NCBI RefSeq assembly: GCF_025822765.1
Contig: NZ_JACKUK010000042.1
Coordinates: 115,769-179,768 of the forward strand
DNA: 64,000 bases
Reading direction: 5' to 3'
Origin: Mycobacterium barrassiae
GTDB lineage: Bacteria > Actinomycetota > Actinomycetes > Mycobacteriales > Mycobacteriaceae
Below the pieces are notes generated by a model. The model saw nothing but the letters and a program-made list of their open reading frames with translations, was not told the DNA's origin and did no database searches. Shown here in pieces: positions 50,322 through 58,919 of the stretch. The position numbers and the translations under genes were made by a program. Each line of letters starts with the position of its first letter. The first letter of the stretch is position 1.

Positions 50322-51854
50322 GTGACCGGCCCGCAGCCCGATCCAGAACCCCGCGAAGAGTGTGGCGTATTCGGCGTTTGGGCGCCGGGCGAAGAAGTCG
50401 CCAAGCTCACCTACTACGGCCTCTACGCGCTACAGCACCGCGGCCAGGAAGCGGCGGGCATGGCCGTCGCCGACGGTTCGCAGGTGTTGGTCTTCAAGGA
50501 TCTAGGCCTGGTCAGCCAGGTCTTCGACGAGCAGACCCTGGCGGCCATGGAAGGCCACGTCGCCATCGGGCACTGCCGCTACTCGACCAGCGGATCCACC
50601 ACCTGGGAGAACGCGCAGCCGGTATTCCGTAACACCGCCGCAGGCACCGGCGTCGCGCTGGGGCACAACGGCAACCTGGTCAACGCCGCCGACCTCGCCA
50701 CCCGTGCGCGCGAGGCGGGTCTGCTCGACACCCGTGGCGGGCCAACGGCCACCACCGACTCCGACATCCTGGGCGCGCTGCTGGCCCACGGTGCCGCCGA
50801 CTCGACGTTGGAGCAGGCCGCACTCGAACTGCTGCCGACCGTGCGCGGCGCGTTCTGCCTGACCTTCATGGACGAGACCACCCTCTATGCGGCCCGCGAC
50901 CCCTATGGCGTGCGGCCGCTTTCGTTGGGGCGGCTGGACCGCGGCTGGGTCGTCGCCTCGGAGACCGCCGCGCTCGACATCGTCGGCGCCTCGTTCGTGC
51001 GCGATATCGAGCCCGGTGAGCTGTTGGCCATCGACGCCGATGGCGTCCGCTCCACCCGCTTCGCCAATCCCGAGCCCAAGGGCTGCGTCTTCGAGTACGT
51101 GTACCTGGCACGGCCCGACAGCACCATCGCGGGCCGTTCCGTCCACGCCGCCCGCGTGGACATCGGCCGTCGGCTGGCCCGCGAGAAGCCCGTCGAGGCC
51201 GATCTCGTGATCGGTGTGCCGGAGTCGGGGACACCCGCCGCCGTCGGCTACGCCCAGGAGTCCGGTATCCCCTACGGGCAGGGCCTGATGAAGAACGCCT
51301 ATGTCGGGCGGACGTTCATCCAGCCGTCGCAGACGATCCGCCAACTCGGTATCCGGCTCAAGCTCAATCCACTCAAGGAAGTGATCCGCGGTAAGCGGCT
51401 GATCGTCGTCGACGACTCCATCGTGCGCGGTAATACGCAGCGGGCGCTGGTGCGGATGCTGCGGGAGGCCGGCGCCGTCGAGGTGCACGTGCGCATCGCA
51501 TCGCCACCGGTGAAGTGGCCGTGCTTCTACGGCATCGACTTCGCCACTCCTGCCGAGCTGATCGCCAACGCCGCCAGCACCGAAGACGATCCCAGCGAGA
51601 TGCTCGAGGGTGTGCGGCACGCCATCGGCGCCGACACGCTGGGCTATATCTCGCAGCGGGGCATGATCGCGGCCACCGAGCAGCCCGCGTCGCGGCTGTG
51701 CTCGGCGTGCTTCGACGGCAACTATCCGATCGAGCTGCCGGGCGAAACGGCGTTGGGCAAGAACGTGATCGAGCACATGTTGGCCACCGCGGCCCGTACC
51801 GGGGTCCCGATTCAGGCCGACAACGACAACGTCTCGGCGTTGCGCAGGCCCTAG
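50322..51854 (+). CDS. purF: Amidophosphoribosyltransferase
   Basis: A 510-residue glutamine-PRPP amidotransferase, the first committed step of purine synthesis. A 13-residue propeptide precedes the catalytic Cys14 (EECGVFGVW). The PRPP-binding loop RLIVVDDSIVRGNT is near residue 363. Four cysteines for the 4Fe-4S cluster are suggested by GCVFEY, WPCFYGID and LCSACFDGN. The GTG start gives the correct propeptide. Its TAG stop shares CTAG with the convergent quinone-reductase-like gene. Confidence 0.96.
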   Translation: MTGPQPDPEPREECGVFGVWAPGEEVAKLTYYGLYALQHRGQEAAGMAVADGSQVLVFKDLGLVSQVFDEQTLAAMEGHVAIGHCRYSTSGSTTWENAQPVFRNTAAGTGVALGHNGNLVNAADLATRAREAGLLDTRGGPTATTDSDILGALLAHGAADSTLEQAALELLPTVRGAFCLTFMDETTLYAARDPYGVRPLSLGRLDRGWVVASETAALDIVGASFVRDIEPGELLAIDADGVRSTRFANPEPKGCVFEYVYLARPDSTIAGRSVHAARVDIGRRLAREKPVEADLVIGVPESGTPAAVGYAQESGIPYGQGLMKNAYVGRTFIQPSQTIRQLGIRLKLNPLKEVIRGKRLIVVDDSIVRGNTQRALVRMLREAGAVEVHVRIASPPVKWPCFYGIDFATPAELIANAASTEDDPSEMLEGVRHAIGADTLGYISQRGMIAATEQPASRLCSACFDGNYPIELPGETALGKNVIEHMLATAARTGVPIQADNDNVSALRRP

Positions 51855-52834
51855 CAGGGCGCGTCCAGCACCAGCTTTCCGATCACCTCGCGGTTGGCCA
51901 ACCGCTGCAGTGCCTTGGGCAATTCGTCGAACGCGACTCGCTCGGTGACTGCGCACCGTAGCCGCCCCGCGGTCACGAGTTCGGACAGTTTGGCGTGCAC
52001 CGCCTCGAGTTCGTGGCGGGCGTAGCCGCCTGCGAACACACCGACCACCGACGTGCCGGTCATGACGAGCAGTTGAGTGTCGACGGCGGGCCAGCGGCCG
52101 CTGGCGAATCCGACGGCGAGCAGTCGCCCGCCCCGTGCCAGCGCACCGTGTGCCTGCTCGGCGGGCTCGCCGCCGACGGGGTCGTAGATGAGGTCGACGC
52201 CACGCCCGCCGGTCGCGGCACGCAGGTCTTCCGCGAGTCCACCGCCGCGGTTCACGATGACCGCCTCGGCGCCCAGACCGCGACAGAACTCCACCTTCTG
52301 CTCATCGCCGACGACGGCGATCACCCTGGCCCCCAGCGCGTTGCCGAGCTGGACGGCCGCGATGCCGCTGCCGCCTGCCGCGCCGAGCACTGCCAGCCAA
52401 TCGCCGGCCGCGATCTGACCCCGATCCACCAGCGCCAGCCAGCCGGTCATGTGCGGAATCCAGAATCCCGCGGCGGCCGCGTCATCGAGCGCGTCGGGCA
52501 CCGGGAACGCCTGTTCCGCGGCCACGACGGTGTATTCGGCGAATGAACCATGGCCCTCGATGAATCCGCTGGTGGACATCACCCGGGTGCCGATCGGGGT
52601 TGCGACACCGTCGCCGACGGCCGTCACGACTCCGGCGAGTTCCTGTCCGGGTGTGAACGGCAGCGGCGGGGTCAGCGGGTACGTGCCGCGCGCCATCAGG
52701 ACGTCGGGCAACCCGATGCCCGCGGCGGTGACCCGCACCTGCAACTGGCCGGGACCGGGCGGCGGGGTCGGTACCTCGGTCAGCCGCAGGACGTCGACCG
52801 GATCGCCCTTGCCGTGCACCTGCCAGGCGCGCAT
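51851..52834 (-). CDS. NADPH:quinone reductase-like medium-chain dehydrogenase
   Basis: A 327-residue MDR protein without zinc ligands. It has GAAGGSGIAAVQLGNALGARVIAV near residue 150 (nucleotide-binding), then DLIYDPVGGEPAEQ and a LGKLVLDAP-like tail (VIGKLVLDAPC). Relatives reduce quinones or enoyl compounds with NADPH. It is divergent from the FadE operon with an operator-like site between, so it may belong to the same regulon. Confidence 0.86.
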   Translation of the reverse strand: MRAWQVHGKGDPVDVLRLTEVPTPPPGPGQLQVRVTAAGIGLPDVLMARGTYPLTPPLPFTPGQELAGVVTAVGDGVATPIGTRVMSTSGFIEGHGSFAEYTVVAAEQAFPVPDALDDAAAAGFWIPHMTGWLALVDRGQIAAGDWLAVLGAAGGSGIAAVQLGNALGARVIAVVGDEQKVEFCRGLGAEAVIVNRGGGLAEDLRAATGGRGVDLIYDPVGGEPAEQAHGALARGGRLLAVGFASGRWPAVDTQLLVMTGTSVVGVFAGGYARHELEAVHAKLSELVTAGRLRCAVTERVAFDELPKALQRLANREVIGKLVLDAPC

Positions 52835-52884: not shown

Positions 52885-52904
52885 GTGATTACAGTGTAAT
52901 TCAC
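52885..52904. promoter_or_regulatory. Operator-like palindrome upstream of the FadE operon
   Basis: GTGATTACAGTGTAATTCAC contains perfect ATTACA/TGTAAT arms around a central G, extended by GTG/CAC. It lies 23 nt before the fadE start and 50 nt before the divergent MDR start. The TetR gene inside the operon is the likely binder (inference). Confidence 0.6.
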
Positions 52905-52927: not shown

Positions 52928-54226
52928 GTGGCATGGGATTTCGAAACAGATCCTGAGTTCGAGCGGCAACTGGCGTGGATGCGCGAGTTCATCGACACGC
53001 AGATCGTGCCGCTGGAGCCCATCCTCGACGAGAAGATGGCGACCGACGAATGGGTCGCGATCAAACGGCACCTGCAGGATCAGGTGAAGGCGCGCGGGCT
53101 GTGGGCGGCGTTCCTCGACCCGGAACTCGGCGGGACCGGCTTCGGTCAGCTGAAGCTCGCGCTGATGTCGGAGATCATCGGCCGCAGCATGGTCTCGATG
53201 GTGGTGTTCGGGGTGCAGGCGCCCGACAGCGGCAACATGGAACTGCTGGCGCACGGCGCCACCGAGGAGCAGAAGCAGCGCTGGCTGTGGCCCAACCTCC
53301 GCGGCGATATCACCAGTGCATTCGCGCTTACCGAGCCGTTCCTCGCGGGTGCCGACCCGACGGTGATCGGTACCACCGCCACCCTCGACGACGGACACTG
53401 GATCATCAACGGCCACAAGTGGTTCACCACCAACGCGTCCACCGCGGACATCATCCTCGTGGTAGCCGAGACCAACCCGGAAGGCCGGCCACATCGGCAC
53501 GCATCGATCTTCGTCGTGCCCACAGGCACCCCGGGGATGACGATCGTGCGCGACATTCCGACAATGGCTCACCCCGACACCGAATACGGGAGGGTAGGCA
53601 ACCATGCGGAGATCGTGTTCACCGACTGCCGGGTGCCGGCCGATCACCTGATCGGCGCACCGGGTGAGGGCTTCCAGCTGGCGCAGCAGCGGCTCGGCGG
53701 CGGACGCATCCACCACTCGATGCGCTGGCTCGGGCAGGCTCAGCGCTCGCTCGACATCATGTGTGAGAGGGCCGTTTCTCGATCGTCACACGGCAGGCGC
53801 CTGGCTGATCACCAGATGATCCAGGACTATATTGCGCTGTCGCACATGGAAATCCAGGCGGCGCGCCTGCTCACATTCCAGACCGCCTGGAAGATGGACA
53901 AGTTCGGTGCGGCGGCTGTTCGTGCCGAACTCGGGATGATCAAGGCGCACGTGTCCAAGGTCGTGCTCGGTGTGCTCGACCGGACCATTCAGGTGTGTGG
54001 CGCGCTCGGCTACTCCGCCGACCTTCCAGTCGAATCCTGGTATCGCACCACCAGGTTCGGACCGATCGGCGACGGTCCCGACGAACTGCACAAGTCGGTG
54101 CTGGCGCGCACGATCCTGCGGACCTACCAACCGGTGGAAGGCTGGCCGACCGAACACATCCCCAGCCGCCGGCCCGCCGCCGAGAAGAAGTGGGCGTCGT
54201 TGTGTGCGGAGGCCGGGCTCGCATGA
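52928..54226 (+). CDS. Acyl-CoA dehydrogenase, ACAD10/11-like
   Basis: A 432-residue flavoprotein. The FAD-binding FALTEPFLAGADPTVIGT near residue 136 and the HKWFTTNASTADIILVV strand show the ACAD fold. The C-terminal helix reads RTTRFGPIGDGPDELHKSVLA: the DGPDE-(L/V)-H element is that of ACAD10/11-type and related bacterial enzymes, not the GGTSEIQR of beta-oxidation FadE proteins. The adjacent phosphotransferase gene overlaps it by 4 nt. The pair may remove a 4-hydroxy group from an acyl-CoA via a phospho-intermediate (inference; see findings). Confidence 0.9.
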   Translation: MAWDFETDPEFERQLAWMREFIDTQIVPLEPILDEKMATDEWVAIKRHLQDQVKARGLWAAFLDPELGGTGFGQLKLALMSEIIGRSMVSMVVFGVQAPDSGNMELLAHGATEEQKQRWLWPNLRGDITSAFALTEPFLAGADPTVIGTTATLDDGHWIINGHKWFTTNASTADIILVVAETNPEGRPHRHASIFVVPTGTPGMTIVRDIPTMAHPDTEYGRVGNHAEIVFTDCRVPADHLIGAPGEGFQLAQQRLGGGRIHHSMRWLGQAQRSLDIMCERAVSRSSHGRRLADHQMIQDYIALSHMEIQAARLLTFQTAWKMDKFGAAAVRAELGMIKAHVSKVVLGVLDRTIQVCGALGYSADLPVESWYRTTRFGPIGDGPDELHKSVLARTILRTYQPVEGWPTEHIPSRRPAAEKKWASLCAEAGLA

Positions 54227-55242
54227 GCGAGCTTGCGGCCCTTCAGCATTACCTCGACGAGGCACTTGGAGATCGTGTGCCGCTGACCGTCACACCGATG
54301 CCCGGTGGCGGTTCGTGCGAGATCTTCGCCGTCGACCGCGGTAACGACTGCTGGGTGCTGCGCCGGGCGCCGCGCCACGCCAGTTCCTCGACCGCGCACG
54401 ACGTGCTGCGGGAGTTCCGCATCCTCGACGCCATCAGGGACGAGCCCGTGCGCATCGCGCGGCCGGTGCTCAGCTGCGATGACCCCGCCGTGTTCGGCTC
54501 CCCGTTTTACTTGATGGCTCGCGTCGACGGGGTTCCGGTGCGCAAAGTCATCCCGTCGGCGTGGGCATCCGCACCGGACACTCACGGCCAGGCCCTCGAA
54601 CAGCTGATCGACGCTTTGGTGGAAATCCATTCGGTCGACTGGAAGCGTTGCGGGCTCGGCGATTTCGCACACTCGGGCCAGTATTTGTCGCGCCAGGTCG
54701 CACGGTGGCTGGCTCAGCTGGACTCGTACAGAGGCCGGGAACTGCCTGCGGCGCGGCGCATCGGCGAATGGCTGGATTCCCGGCGTCCCTCCGATCAACC
54801 GCCGGCGCTCGCGCACGGGGACTACAAGCTGGACAACGTGTTGTTCGCAGCGGATGCGCCGCCGCGGCTGCTGGCCGTCGTCGACTGGGAGATGGCCTCG
54901 ATCGGCGATCCGCTGGTCGACCTCGCATGGGCGTTGATCTTTCACCCCGGTCCCGGCGGCACCATGCCTCTCGGCATGGCCGGCGAGCCGCGGTTTGCGC
55001 TCGACCATCTGCCCGACGTGCCCGCGCTCGTCGACCGTTACGCGCGGCGATCGGGCCGCGATGTGTCCGAATTCGTTTGGTACGAAGTGTTTTCGCGCTG
55101 GAAGTTGGCGATCGTCCTCGAGGGAAGTTACGCGAAGTTCGTGCGGGGGCAGTCGGACAAGCCGGTGCACGAATTGTTCGGCGCCCAGGCCGACCTGCTG
55201 TTGGAGGGCGCGGCTGCTCTGATCGAACGAGAGGACGCGTGA
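54223..55242 (+). CDS. APH-family phosphotransferase, paired with FadE
   Basis: A 339-residue kinase of the aminoglycoside/choline-kinase fold. It has the nucleotide loop PMPGGGSCEIFAV near residue 26, the VLRRAP lysine-position strand, the catalytic loop LAHGDYKLDNVLF near residue 200, and the metal-binding VVDWEMASIGDPLVDLAW near residue 219. Together with an ACAD10/11-like partner it is best read as an acyl-CoA (hydroxyacyl) kinase rather than an antibiotic-resistance enzyme. The ATGA overlap with fadE indicates tight coupling. Confidence 0.87.
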   Translation: MSELAALQHYLDEALGDRVPLTVTPMPGGGSCEIFAVDRGNDCWVLRRAPRHASSSTAHDVLREFRILDAIRDEPVRIARPVLSCDDPAVFGSPFYLMARVDGVPVRKVIPSAWASAPDTHGQALEQLIDALVEIHSVDWKRCGLGDFAHSGQYLSRQVARWLAQLDSYRGRELPAARRIGEWLDSRRPSDQPPALAHGDYKLDNVLFAADAPPRLLAVVDWEMASIGDPLVDLAWALIFHPGPGGTMPLGMAGEPRFALDHLPDVPALVDRYARRSGRDVSEFVWYEVFSRWKLAIVLEGSYAKFVRGQSDKPVHELFGAQADLLLEGAAALIEREDA

Positions 55243-55243
55243 C

Positions 55244-56098
55244 ATGACGCGAGGCATCGCACCGCCCGTGCTGTCGCTGGCGGGACGCAGCGCGCTGGTG
55301 ACCGGTGGTGGCACCGGAATCGGCAAGGCGTGCGCGACGGCGTTGGCCGAAGCCGGCGCCACGGTTGTGATCTGCGGACCCGACCGTGCCGTCCTCGACG
55401 CGGCGGCCGGACAGATGCCCGGCACCGTGCGCAGCATCGTCGCCGACGTCACCGATGAGGCACAGGTGCAGGCGGCGGTCGACGCGGCGTGCGTCGACGG
55501 GGCACTGGACATCGCCGTCGCGAACGCGGGCATCCCGATGCCGGGTTCGGTGTTGCACATGACCGACGAACACTGGATGGGGCCCGTCGGGGTGAACCTT
55601 CTCGGTACCGCGCACACCATCAAGCACGCAGCGAGGCGGATGATGCCCAAGGGCGGTTCGATCGTCGCGATCTCGTCGATCGCCAGCCTGCGGCCCGCGT
55701 CGTTCATGGCCACCTACAACGTCACCAAGGCCGCCGTCGATGAGTTGGTCCGCACGTGCGCCGCCGAGCTCGGCCGCTTCGGGATCCGGGTCAACGGGGT
55801 GCGGCCAGGTTGGGTCGCCACCGAAACCGTCGCCACGACAACCACTCCGGAGAACATGGCGATCATCCGTGACGGCACACCGCTGGCGGGCCCGAGTGCG
55901 CACGACGGCCTCGGGCGCCCGGAAGACGTCGCCCGAGCGGTCGTGTACTTCGCATCCGACTACTCCGGATGGGTCACCGGCCAGCTGCTCGGCGTGTGCG
56001 GCGGATCGTCACTGCCGCCGCCCTCGGGCGACTTCTCCTACGTCGCGAGGATGCTGTTCCCCGACGATATGGGACGCGATTTCGGCGAGGTGGGCTGA
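55244..56098 (+). CDS. Short-chain dehydrogenase/reductase
   Basis: A 284-residue SDR with TGGGTGIGKA near residue 20, ANAGIPM near residue 92, the catalytic TYNVTKAAVD near residue 158, and a longer C-terminal tail (from CGGSSLPPPSG) than classical members. It starts 1 nt after the kinase stop and overlaps the TetR gene by one base. Within this operon it may interconvert a hydroxy- and keto-acyl-CoA (inference). Confidence 0.86.
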   Translation: MTRGIAPPVLSLAGRSALVTGGGTGIGKACATALAEAGATVVICGPDRAVLDAAAGQMPGTVRSIVADVTDEAQVQAAVDAACVDGALDIAVANAGIPMPGSVLHMTDEHWMGPVGVNLLGTAHTIKHAARRMMPKGGSIVAISSIASLRPASFMATYNVTKAAVDELVRTCAAELGRFGIRVNGVRPGWVATETVATTTTPENMAIIRDGTPLAGPSAHDGLGRPEDVARAVVYFASDYSGWVTGQLLGVCGGSSLPPPSGDFSYVARMLFPDDMGRDFGEVG

Positions 56099-56706
56099 TG
56101 CCGAAGGCCAACGACTTCGAGCTGGCCCCCGACGAGATCGTCGCGGCCGCGGTGGAGATCTTCCTCGAACAGGGACTCGATGCGGTGAGCATGCGCAGCG
56201 TGGCGGCGCGTCTCGGAGTGTCGCCTGCGCCGCTGTACAGCCGCGTCGGCAACAAGGACGCGTTGGTCGATGCGATCGCCGACCACCTGCTGTCGGATCT
56301 GGCCCCGCCCCACGCCGATGACGAGCCGTGGACCGACTACGCAATGCGCTGGGCACTCGAGCTGCGTACCCGGCTGCGACGCGCTCACGACAGCCGCCTG
56401 ATTCTCGTCACGGATCGCGACGCCTACGTCGAGGCGTCGCGCCCCCTGGTGTCGGTGATGCGCGCCAGTGGTTTTGCCGCCGACGCGGCGGTGCAGGCCT
56501 GCCGTCTGGTGATGTGGGCGACCGTCGGGTTCGTGGCGATGGAGACCGCCGCAAAAGCGCCGCCTGCCCGCGCGACCAGACGCGGCCGTTCCGGCAGCAA
56601 CCCGCACGGCGTGACACCCGAAGACGCCGACGAGCTGTTCAGCCTGCAGATTCGATATGTGATCGACGGCATCGCGCGCGATGCACAAGGGGCACAAGGA
56701 GATTGA
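56098..56706 (+). CDS. TetR-family regulator in the FadE operon
   Basis: A 202-residue TetR protein starting MPKANDFELAPDEIVAAA. The DNA-binding motif SMRSVAARLGVSPAPLYSRVGN is near residue 38, and the C-terminal half is of the TetR_C group (MWATVGFVAMETAAK). It sits in the middle of the FadE operon, so it is probably an autoregulatory repressor that binds the palindrome at 52885. A start-stop overlap TGATG joins it to the preceding SDR. Confidence 0.85.
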   Translation: MPKANDFELAPDEIVAAAVEIFLEQGLDAVSMRSVAARLGVSPAPLYSRVGNKDALVDAIADHLLSDLAPPHADDEPWTDYAMRWALELRTRLRRAHDSRLILVTDRDAYVEASRPLVSVMRASGFAADAAVQACRLVMWATVGFVAMETAAKAPPARATRRGRSGSNPHGVTPEDADELFSLQIRYVIDGIARDAQGAQGD

Positions 56707-56710
56707 GCCG

Positions 56711-57460
56711 ATGACGATTCCGGATCTGCGTGCCGACGGCAAGGTGGTCGTCATCACCGGAGCCAGCAAGGGGCTCGGCCGCGCGATGGCTCTCGGGTTC
56801 GCCGAGGCAGGCGCCGACATCGTGGTGGCCAGCCGCAAGCTGGACGGCTGCCGGCGGGTGGCCGACGAGGTGCGCGCGGCCGGCCGCAGGGCGCTGCCCG
56901 TCAGCTGTCACGTCGGCGACTGGGATCAGTGCCAACGCCTCGTCGACGACACCGTTGCCGAGTTCGGTCGCATCGACGTCCTGATCAACAACGCGGGCAT
57001 CGCTCCCGTGCCGCCCGCGCTCAAAGACGTCACCGCGGACCTCTTCGACAAGACACTTGGTGTGAACTTGAAGGGCCCGCTGCGCTTGACGGCCCTTGCC
57101 GCCGAGCACATGCATGCCGGGGGTGCGGTGATCAACATCAGCTCGAAGGCGTCGCACTATCCGAGTCCGACCACGGTCGTGTACGCGGCAGCGAAGGCCG
57201 GGCTGAACGTGCTGACGAAGGCGGCGGGGCAGGAGTTCGGGCCGCGCGGCATCCGGGTCAACGCCATCGTGTGCGGCACGTTCCACACCGACAGCCTGCA
57301 CAAGTCGATGCCGACCGAGGAAGCCAGAGACTTCATGGCGTCGAATGTGAGCCTCGGCCGTATCGCGTCAGCCGACGAGATCGTCGGCACCGCATTGTAT
57401 TTGGCCAGTGATGCCAGCTCGTACCTCAACGGCGCGCTCATCGAGCTCGACGGCGGCTAG
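56711..57460 (+). CDS. Short-chain dehydrogenase/reductase
   Basis: A 249-residue SDR with TGASKGLGRA near residue 17, NNAGIAPVPP near residue 94, and catalytic VYAAAKAG near residue 157. The tail is NGALIELDGG. It ends the FadE operon (4 nt after the TetR stop). The NmrA-type pseudogene converges 2 nt after its stop. Substrate unknown; a hydroxyacyl-CoA or small alcohol is plausible given its neighbours. Confidence 0.87.
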   Translation: MTIPDLRADGKVVVITGASKGLGRAMALGFAEAGADIVVASRKLDGCRRVADEVRAAGRRALPVSCHVGDWDQCQRLVDDTVAEFGRIDVLINNAGIAPVPPALKDVTADLFDKTLGVNLKGPLRLTALAAEHMHAGGAVINISSKASHYPSPTTVVYAAAKAGLNVLTKAAGQEFGPRGIRVNAIVCGTFHTDSLHKSMPTEEARDFMASNVSLGRIASADEIVGTALYLASDASSYLNGALIELDGG

Positions 57461-57462
57461 GG

Positions 57463-58446
57463 TCACCGACCGGCCTTGGCCCACTGTGGATCGCTGGGCA
57501 GCGGCCCGTTCTTCAGTGCGTCGGCGATCGCGTCGCGGTAACCGGTGGCACCGCGAGGCGGCGGTCCGATCACGGTGTCGATGTCGTGCTCGTTGCGCAC
57601 CGCGTCGACCTCCAACGATTCGATCAGCGGCCGGGCGAGACCTGGGGGCATCGGCGTGACGAGACCGATCCACAGGCTGGCGATCGTCGGCGTCAGAAAT
57701 GGGATCGCGACGATCAGCCGCCTGCGCAGGCCGGCCACCTGCGCGTAGACCTGCATCGCGTCGCCGTATTCGAGCACGTCGGGGCCGCCGATGTCCCAGG
57801 TGCGCGACGCGGGCATCTCCGCCGTGGCGGCTTCGGCGAGGTAGTGCAGCACGTCGTGGATCGCGATCGGCTGGATCTTGTTGTGCACCCACTTCGGCGT
57901 CGTCATCGCAGGGAGCCGGTTGGTGAGGTGGCGCATCATCTCGAATGATGCTGAGCCGGAACCGATCACGATCCCCGCCTGCAGCACGACCGTCTCGATG
58001 CCGGAGTCCAGCAGGATCTCACCGACCGCGACCCGCGACCGCAGATGCGGCGACAACTCCACCCCCGACGGGTGCAGCCCACCGAGATACACCAGCCGTT
58101 TCACGCCCGCGCGGTTGGCCGCGGCGACGACGTTGCGGGCCGACTCCGCCTCCGCGGCGACGAAATCCGCCGAACTGCCCATCGAGTGCACCAGGTAGTA
58201 CACGACGTCGGTGCCCTCGAACGCCGCGCTCAGCGAATCGGGATCGGCGAGGTCGCCGCGGGCGACCTCGACGCCGTCACGCCACGGCACGTCCGCGAGT
58301 TTGTCGGGGTTGCGCGCCAATGCCCGCACCGAATAGCCGCGATCGAGCAGTCACGGCACCAACCGGCCACCGATGTAGCCGGTCGCGCCGGTCACCAGGC
58401 AACGGTTTCGGGCGGGGCTCCGGTCAGGGGTCCTGTCAGCCGACAT
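57463..58446 (-). pseudogene. NmrA-like NAD(P)-binding protein gene with an in-frame stop
   Basis: Reading from ATG 58446 gives MSADRTPDRSPARNRCLVTG, then the nucleotide-binding loop TGATGYIGGRLVP, then TGA (58353-58351), and then LLDRGYSVRALARNPDKL. The rest of the protein follows, including YYLVHSMGSS, LVYLGGLHP and VIGSGSASFEMMRHL, to the stop at 57463. The TGA stands where an Arg codon (CGA) is expected, so a single C-to-T change would restore a 327-residue protein. A restart at GTG 58329 would lack the cofactor loop. The protein would be an atypical SDR that oxidises or binds an unknown substrate. A sequencing error is possible. Confidence 0.82.
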
Positions 58447-58481: not shown

Positions 58482-58919
58482 CTAGACCGGGCAACCAGGC
58501 GGCGGCGGGACGTCAAAGGTGGTGGGCGTTCCGGCAGGCAGGATGTAGTCCACCCACAGCACCACCGGAACGGTGCCGAGGTTGCGGCCGTTGTGCGGAT
58601 GGTCGGGCCCACTGCCCTCGGTGACCGCAGCTCCCGTCGGGTCGACGATCTCCGTGCAGTCGGGCATGGTGCGGGTCAGCGTGCCTTCGCGGACGACGCC
58701 GAACGTCCGTCCTTCGTGGTAGTGCCAGCCCGTGCTGCCGCCGGGCTGGATCGTGATCCTCTTGGTGATGTAGTCGATGCCGTCGACGGTGGACTGATTG
58801 ATGACCACCGCGTCGACGTTGACCGGCGGGGTCGCGACCGCGCTGGTGGGTGCCAGCACGGCCGAGGCGGCGGTCAGGGCGACGGGCAGGACGGGTGCGA
58901 ACCAGCGAACAAGTTTCAT
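58482..58919 (-). CDS. Secreted cupin-domain protein
   Basis: A 145-residue protein with a signal peptide (MKLVRWFAPVLPVALTAASAVLA, cleavage near AVATPP). The mature part is a cupin barrel: ITIQPGGSTGWHYHEGRTFGVVREGTLT carries the H-x-H and E metal ligands, and HPHNGRNLG the last His. It likely binds a metal and a small ligand outside the membrane, with unknown enzymology. It is preceded by a gap to purM, which is divergent. Confidence 0.82.
   Translation of the reverse strand: MKLVRWFAPVLPVALTAASAVLAPTSAVATPPVNVDAVVINQSTVDGIDYITKRITIQPGGSTGWHYHEGRTFGVVREGTLTRTMPDCTEIVDPTGAAVTEGSGPDHPHNGRNLGTVPVVLWVDYILPAGTPTTFDVPPPPGCPV

Follow-up and report, generated by a model that had tools for sequence, protein, structure and literature searches.

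A putative TetR-controlled, probably horizontally acquired cassette for hydroxyl removal from hydroxyacyl-CoA by way of phosphorylation in Mycobacterium barrassiae

The window analysed here, a stretch of 64,000 nucleotides of the 5.9-Mb Mycobacterium barrassiae genome (NCBI RefSeq assembly GCF_025822765.1, contig NZ_JACKUK010000042.1; G000:C42:115769-179768, where G000 is the window's own genome), contains a gene cassette that likely encodes a TetR-controlled, probably horizontally acquired catabolic route that strips a hydroxyacyl-CoA of a hydroxyl group by way of its phosphorylation. The phosphorylation and elimination mechanism is well supported by the predicted active-site residues, and a 4-hydroxyacyl-CoA represents our best guess for the substrate. 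The core of the cassette is formed by the genes for FadE, an ACAD10/11-like and probably phosphate-eliminating acyl-CoA dehydrogenase (ACAD; 52928-54226, plus strand; 432 aa, GTG start, three acyl-CoA dehydrogenase Pfam domains), and for an APH-fold kinase closely related to that of ACAD11 (54223-55242, plus strand; 339 aa, ATG start at 54223; Pfam APH PF01636, E = 1.2e-40). As described in an earlier note on this sequence, the FadE stop and the kinase start overlap by 4 nt as ATGA (54223-54226); these are separate open reading frames and not one polypeptide. Genes for a short-chain dehydrogenase (SDR1), a TetR-family regulator and a second short-chain dehydrogenase (SDR2) follow downstream in the same orientation, with short gaps or overlaps between them, while a medium-chain dehydrogenase/reductase (MDR) gene is divergent from FadE, with 93 nt between them. 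The cassette contains these six genes only.

The C-terminal element of FadE reads GDGPDELH, and its comparison in the earlier note with ACAD10/11-like enzymes was borne out. Its first Asp (D382), which stands where other ACADs carry Glu, was invariant in 40 of 40 sequences, so the element is no chance resemblance; R260, H263 and R266 were also invariant among 40 sequences and R255 nearly so (90% or more). The best solved relatives of FadE were the ACAD11 chains 8v3u and 2wbi (E about 6e-80), compared with 6e-76 for 4hr3, 7e-50 for the short-chain enzyme SCAD and about 5e-32 for the medium-chain enzyme MCAD. By alignment, which is the basis of the pocket geometry given here, R255, R260, H263, R266 and D382 correspond to R626, R631, H634, R637 and the catalytic D753 of ACAD11. 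Going by the accessible sections of the cited papers, here and below, modelling of ACAD11 set the 4-phosphate of the substrate against R626, H634 and R637, with D753 as the base (PMC12440821). Nonconservative substitutions of these two Arg and of the His in ACAD10/11 hit the dehydrogenase step hardest, with accumulation of the phospho-intermediate, while R637K caused only a partial impairment (PMC12440821). The complete RRHRD signature was present in 105 of the 135 aligned ACADs (FadE and ACAD11 included; duplicates and proteins shorter than 330 aa were dropped) and in every aligned ACAD whose identity to FadE exceeded 40%; the remaining 30 all possessed R631 and none had the full set.

FadE could also be an ordinary ACAD with an Asp base that acts on bulky acyl-CoAs, the kinase serving an unrelated step. 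It is an ACAD by domain, bulky or sterol substrates were proposed for ACAD10/11 in 2024 from the shape of the cavity (PMC11153573), and older work on truncated ACAD11, mentioned in PMC12440821, suggested long-chain activity. However, the pocket His and two Arg never occurred together with the Asp in the 30 non-clade ACADs, full-length ACAD10/11 were, according to the accessible part of PMC12440821, inactive on acyl-CoAs of C6-C22 in the conditions chosen, and the kinase gene overlaps FadE in the window and also accompanies it in 23 of the 25 close-orthologue loci (see below). We regard this explanation as quite improbable. In a quick tree of the 135 rows, which gave long-branch warnings, the 105 signature-bearing ACADs formed one clade with ACAD11 (Shimodaira-Hasegawa-like approximate likelihood ratio test, SH-aLRT, 99), and neither this tree nor the signature alignment placed FadE in a classical beta-oxidation clade. 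FadE is a non-classical ACAD of this presumed phosphate-eliminating, ACAD10/11-like clade. The ACAD10/11 kinship proposed earlier thus holds for the clade as a whole but not for the ACAD11 branch itself: the clade splits into a 6-row branch with ACAD11 and a further ACAD of the window's own genome (L005), and a 99-row sister branch into which FadE falls (support 99). Eleven positions differed consistently between the two branches, the ACAD11 side comprising six sequences only. Identity to ACAD11 was 58% for L005 and 41% for FadE; FadE is therefore the more divergent relative, and a closer ACAD11 counterpart is also present in the genome. LvaC of the Pseudomonas levulinate (lva) operon is 62% identical to ACAD10 and 56% to ACAD11 (PMC11342911).

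The kinase was nearest by sequence to the group of 9o56, 3dxp and ACAD11 and distant from characterised resistance kinases, in agreement with the type of kinase-dehydrogenase module suggested in the earlier note. It possessed the catalytic residues H198, D200, N205 and D221, as well as R63 and R157 at CoA-contact positions. All 47 aligned kinases, those of the window and ACAD11 included, kept D220, N225, the Asp of the DW motif and the Arg next to the alphaC Glu (R86 in the published numbering, residue 84 in this count), and 46 of them kept R176; this alignment was made without L028, with its frameshift-like 668-aa open reading frame over APH and MDR, and L032 (276 aa). These catalytic and CoA-contact residues indicate that the enzyme is probably a hydroxyacyl-CoA kinase of the LvaA/ACAD11 type. 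When its predicted structure was compared with PDB chains, 25-hydroxysteroid kinase was the second-best match; the absence of ACAD11 among the 50 structural matches listed is no argument against ACAD11 kinship. An antibiotic-modifying kinase in an incidental neighbourhood would have the same APH Pfam fold, and the single sequence gave weak matches to viomycin, macrolide, capreomycin and aminoglycoside kinases (E 1e-5 to 1e-3). None of these was matched by the kinase family profile at E 1e-10, however, all seven NCBIfam resistance models matched far below their cut-offs (best 43.4 bits for a cut-off of 205), and the gene is linked to an ACAD gene. A resistance function is extremely unlikely.

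The linkage was examined in the loci of the best 80 of at least 587 confirmed FadE relatives, among which close orthologues were 68-85% identical to FadE and, after a gap, the rest at most 56%. Of the 25 close-orthologue loci, some of which are short contigs (that of L018 stops 82 nt past the FadE match), 23 had a kinase gene, 22 an MDR-family gene (counting the window's type, 57-92% identical, and a second type, 25-30%), all 25 an SDR gene and 22 a TetR counterpart (54-93%). When 3 kb of sequence was required on both sides, which left out nine of the 25, including L018 and L030, a kinase gene lay within 5 kb for all 16 close orthologues, for 11 of the 18 relatives at 48-60% identity and for 29 of the 42 at 35-48% (56 of 76 clade members overall); for an MDR gene the counts were 16 of 16, 2 of 18 and 19 of 42. 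An APH gene was also near three of seven non-clade ACADs (L109, L110 and L111), all three of which adjoin orthologues of the window cassette. Within the window's own genome, APH matches of at least 50 bits lay within 5 kb of two of the five ACADs at 40% identity or more and of one of the 64 others; with no bit limit, the counts were two of five and three of 64. The company of kinase and MDR is not mere synteny, because gene order and strand vary among loci, although many of the compared loci come from related mycobacteria. The divergent MDR belongs to the module; an MDR gene also adjoins the kinase/ACAD pair in other mycobacteria, as a FadE-APH-MDR operon, and in Methylobacterium, in the order MDR-ACAD-APH. 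SDR1 is an optional member, counterparts above 60% being found only in L021 and L108 among the close-orthologue loci.

The gene content named in the earlier note (FadE, kinase, two SDRs and a TetR regulator) stood, while the divergent MDR, the operator and the island setting had been missed. The MDR (51851-52834, minus strand; Pfam ADH_N/ADH_zinc_N) is a PIG3-like member of the quinone-oxidoreductase/enone-reductase family, with a match to NCBIfam TIGR02824 below cut-off and 4eye as its best solved relative. SDR1 (55244-56098, plus strand) was assigned by Pfam and locus comparison, and its stop overlaps the start of the TetR-family gene (56098-56706, plus strand; Pfam TetR_N). SDR2 (56711-57460, plus strand, with an alternative start upstream at 56681; Pfam) is a candidate 4-oxoacyl-CoA reductase, and its best solved relatives were 7-alpha-hydroxysteroid dehydrogenases.

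The divergent MDR/FadE promoter region contains a perfect palindrome, TTACAGTGTAA (52889-52899; extended, GATTACAGTGTAATTC), for which 0.04 matches would be expected in the window at up to one mismatch. Of the 22 close-orthologue loci with sequence upstream of FadE, 19 carried the pattern GATTACNNTGTNAT there, at one place each and starting 15-68 nt before the start of the match; L028, L029 and L055 were not counted, as their contigs begin in or at the gene. It was absent upstream of FadE in L020, which has a TetR gene, and in L025 and L030, which have no TetR match. Without its first G, the pattern had two matches in the 1.12 Mb of the 81 other loci. The palindrome is likely the TetR operator, and a single operator between MDR and FadE, presumably bound by this TetR, would serve both promoters. 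One other exact match in the window's own genome (C3) lies just upstream of a helix-turn-helix regulator-like gene (assigned by eye), and two further places appeared when one mismatch was allowed. As a regulon member the C3 match was taken as chance, and the own-genome search with the operator pattern found no regulon.

In the proposed pathway, the MDR would probably first reduce a 4-oxo-2-enoyl (enone) precursor, and SDR2 (and SDR1) would probably reduce 4-oxoacyl-CoA to hydroxyacyl-CoA, as LvaD does, both steps being suggested by enzyme class and linkage. The APH-fold kinase would transfer a phosphate from ATP to the hydroxyl, most likely the 4-hydroxyl, of the acyl-CoA. FadE would then remove this phosphate, D382 taking the alpha proton and FAD accepting and then returning a hydride, with the leaving phosphate held by R255, H263 and R266; the kinase and FadE steps are proposed from conserved catalytic residues and published chemistry. 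The resulting 2-enoyl-CoA would enter ordinary beta-oxidation, with no net change in oxidation state. TetR would sit on the MDR/FadE palindrome, and the presence of the substrate would free both promoters. Because the cassette has no CoA ligase gene, the acyl-CoA must come from elsewhere.

The settings of several relatives suit oxygenated or ring-opened acids that lead to hydroxyacyl-CoAs and do not fix the substrate of the window's enzymes. Two Rhodococcus plasmid relatives (50%) lie near genes for a CoA ligase, an alpha/beta hydrolase, an SDR, an LLM flavin monooxygenase, a flavin reductase and an APH kinase, a set that could make hydroxy acids, while a Massilia relative, whose ACAD gene is overlapped by an APH gene, is flanked by P450s, a CoA transferase and SDRs. 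A Methylobacterium locus of the ACAD11 branch has the order CoA ligase-MDR-ACAD-APH-crotonase, and plasmid pNK84 of Caballeronia sp. NK8 (L147) the order histidine phosphatase-APH-SDR-ACAD. The same kinase and elimination chemistry could act on another hydroxyl or another skeleton, such as an alicyclic, branched, steroid or terpenoid side-chain acyl-CoA, the sister branch having its own substrate range. A separate range would be consistent with the distinct branch and its 11 differences, with the genes for P450s, a CoA transferase and a monooxygenase that lie near the Massilia and Rhodococcus relatives, and with the steroid enzymes found among the structural matches of the kinase and as nearest solved relatives of SDR2; the separate ACAD11-like gene in the genome also means that the island may do something else. 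Yet every phosphate-pocket residue matches ACAD11, and the kinase family profile matches ACAD11 (3e-68) far better than 25-hydroxysteroid kinase (7.5e-27). Another substrate class is unlikely in our assessment, and a 4-hydroxyacyl-CoA is preferred.

Of 198 sampled genomes of the genus, 11 had a FadE orthologue (E up to 1e-150), that of the window being one of them, and among the other ten only G039 (97%) had the cassette in the same place and order. The island is bordered on the left by the native purF (50322-51854, plus strand) and on the right by a native NmrA-like gene (57463-58329, minus strand; Pfam); in seven of seven examined genomes without a FadE orthologue, the next gene after purF is the native nmrA or purM, and the cassette genes are absent. 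The window's APH, SDR2 and MDR were 70-75%, 75-80% and 67-68% identical to those of L017 (an Acidimicrobiales metagenome-assembled genome, MAG), L021 (Streptacidiphilus) and L027 (an Actinomycetes MAG), compared with 46-49%, 45-50% and 57-60% (same-type MDR) for most other mycobacterial loci, G039 and L028 (a MAG labelled Mycobacterium) being the mycobacterial exceptions with closer-type genes. Because these three genes are closer to L017, L021 and L027 than to most mycobacterial loci, acquisition of the cassette from outside the genus is suggested. A target-site repeat was looked for at the island and none was found.

Some observations stand against the linkage or qualify the proposed origin. 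The FadE orthologue of L030 (68%, a Deltaproteobacteria MAG) is a true exception, having an SDR gene but no kinase, MDR or TetR gene in the 2.9 kb upstream and 7 kb downstream that were examined. An R. gordoniae relative (52%) adjoins a CoA ligase gene, with no kinase annotated in 21 kb, and a relative in Rhodococcus sp. BH4 (46%) has none annotated in 19 kb. Concerning the origin, the FadE tree, in which genomes of the window's genus cluster with named Mycobacterium loci, places the window in a mycobacterial group (support 89), and base composition is neutral (G+C content of 67.9% in the island, 66.8% to its left and 67.9% to its right).

Among known systems, mammalian ACAD10 and ACAD11 (PMC12440821, PMC11342911) share with the cassette the combination of an APH-type kinase and an ACAD, the five pocket and catalytic residues (compared with ACAD11) and the catalytic and CoA-contact residues of the ACAD11 kinase. 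They differ in that the window's kinase and ACAD are encoded by two overlapping genes instead of one protein, that FadE belongs to the sister branch at 41% identity to ACAD11, and that the cassette has its own MDR, SDRs and TetR and no HAD gene. The Pseudomonas lva operon, also invoked in the earlier note, similarly clusters separate genes for a kinase (LvaA), an ACAD (LvaC) and an SDR (LvaD); the parallel does not extend to LvaB, LvaE (CoA ligase) and the sigma54-type LvaR, which the cassette lacks, having an MDR and a TetR regulator. As LvaA, LvaC and LvaD were known by description (PMC6692424, PMC11342911), L147 served as a stand-in, SDR2 being 36% identical to its LvaD-like SDR and FadE 44% to its LvaC-like protein. 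In the accessible sections of PMC6692424, the P. citronellolis levulinate cluster is also without LvaB, and a P. putida lvaE deletion mutant still grows on levulinate. The L147 cluster has a kinase, an SDR and an ACAD like the window cassette and agrees with the P. citronellolis cluster in all four gene types (PMC6692424), but its ACAD falls in the ACAD11 branch and no MDR is annotated in 15 kb. The 25-hydroxysteroid kinase of Sterolibacterium (9fsg; PMC8449060) is likewise an APH-like kinase whose phosphoester product is then eliminated to an alkene; it differs in acting on a free steroid and in its weak sequence similarity to the window's kinase, and its lyase is given as unknown as of 2021 in the accessible part of that paper. 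No study of this actinobacterial branch was among the literature-search results listed, subscription papers being largely outside the search.

The mammalian enzymes acting on 4-hydroxy acids were described in 2024-2025 (PMC11342911, PMC12440821). The present analysis adds the MDR, the operator and the island and places FadE in the sister branch. It points to a distinct branch in bacteria that shares the active-site residues of the mammalian enzymes, and to a compact cassette that unites kinase, dehydrogenase, reductases, regulator and operator. If the proposed function is true, many bacterial genes labelled plain acyl-CoA dehydrogenase or phosphotransferase would serve hydroxyl removal. More speculatively, the 99-row sister branch might be a general 'phospho-dehydroxylase', that is, kinase/ACAD pairs for many hydroxyacyl-CoAs other than those of straight-chain 4-hydroxy acids (ring-opened lactones, terpenoid or sterol side chains) carried among actinobacteria in mobile regulated cassettes.

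A HAD-family gene was observed just before the kinase gene in three orthologous cassettes (L017:2674-3423, L027:9396-10139 and L029:2105-2869), with a fragment in a fourth (L018:7148-7216). The three complete genes encode the motif DFAGT, with one Asp of DxD. As DxAGT is also found in phosphonatase-type HADs, these proteins may be active. The HAD domain of ACAD10 has only the first Asp and restrains its kinase (PMC11342911). As part of the same tentative proposal, the HAD, kinase and ACAD of these loci might correspond, as separate proteins, to the three domains joined in ACAD10, known here by description, and their HAD-kinase gene order bears on the origin of the ACAD10 domain set.

The window's own genome possessed other members of the clade. 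A FadE-APH-MDR operon (G000:C16:124835-126933; L002 and L016), whose FadE is about 45% identical to that of the window, represents a second kinase/ACAD module; it is also present in most of the loci L062-L083 and is conserved in many Mycolicibacterium and Mycobacterium loci. Two further ACADs with the full pocket signature (G000:C16:166652-167926 and G000:C35:64856-66061) had no kinase match within 5 kb and may borrow a kinase encoded elsewhere. L005 (G000:C29:215004-216158), 58% identical to the ACAD11 dehydrogenase domain, also had no kinase match within 5 kb and is followed by a protein tyrosine phosphatase-like gene (assigned by eye), an arrangement resembling the mycobacterial fadE2-ptbB pair. 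A signature-bearing ACAD (44% identical) was found on a MAG contig labelled Klebsiella pneumoniae (L088), which is probably a mislabelled bin. Beyond the right edge of the island, a small cupin gene with a signal-peptide-like start (by eye) lies between nmrA and purM (58482-58919, minus strand), and it occupies the same place in five of eight relatives examined.

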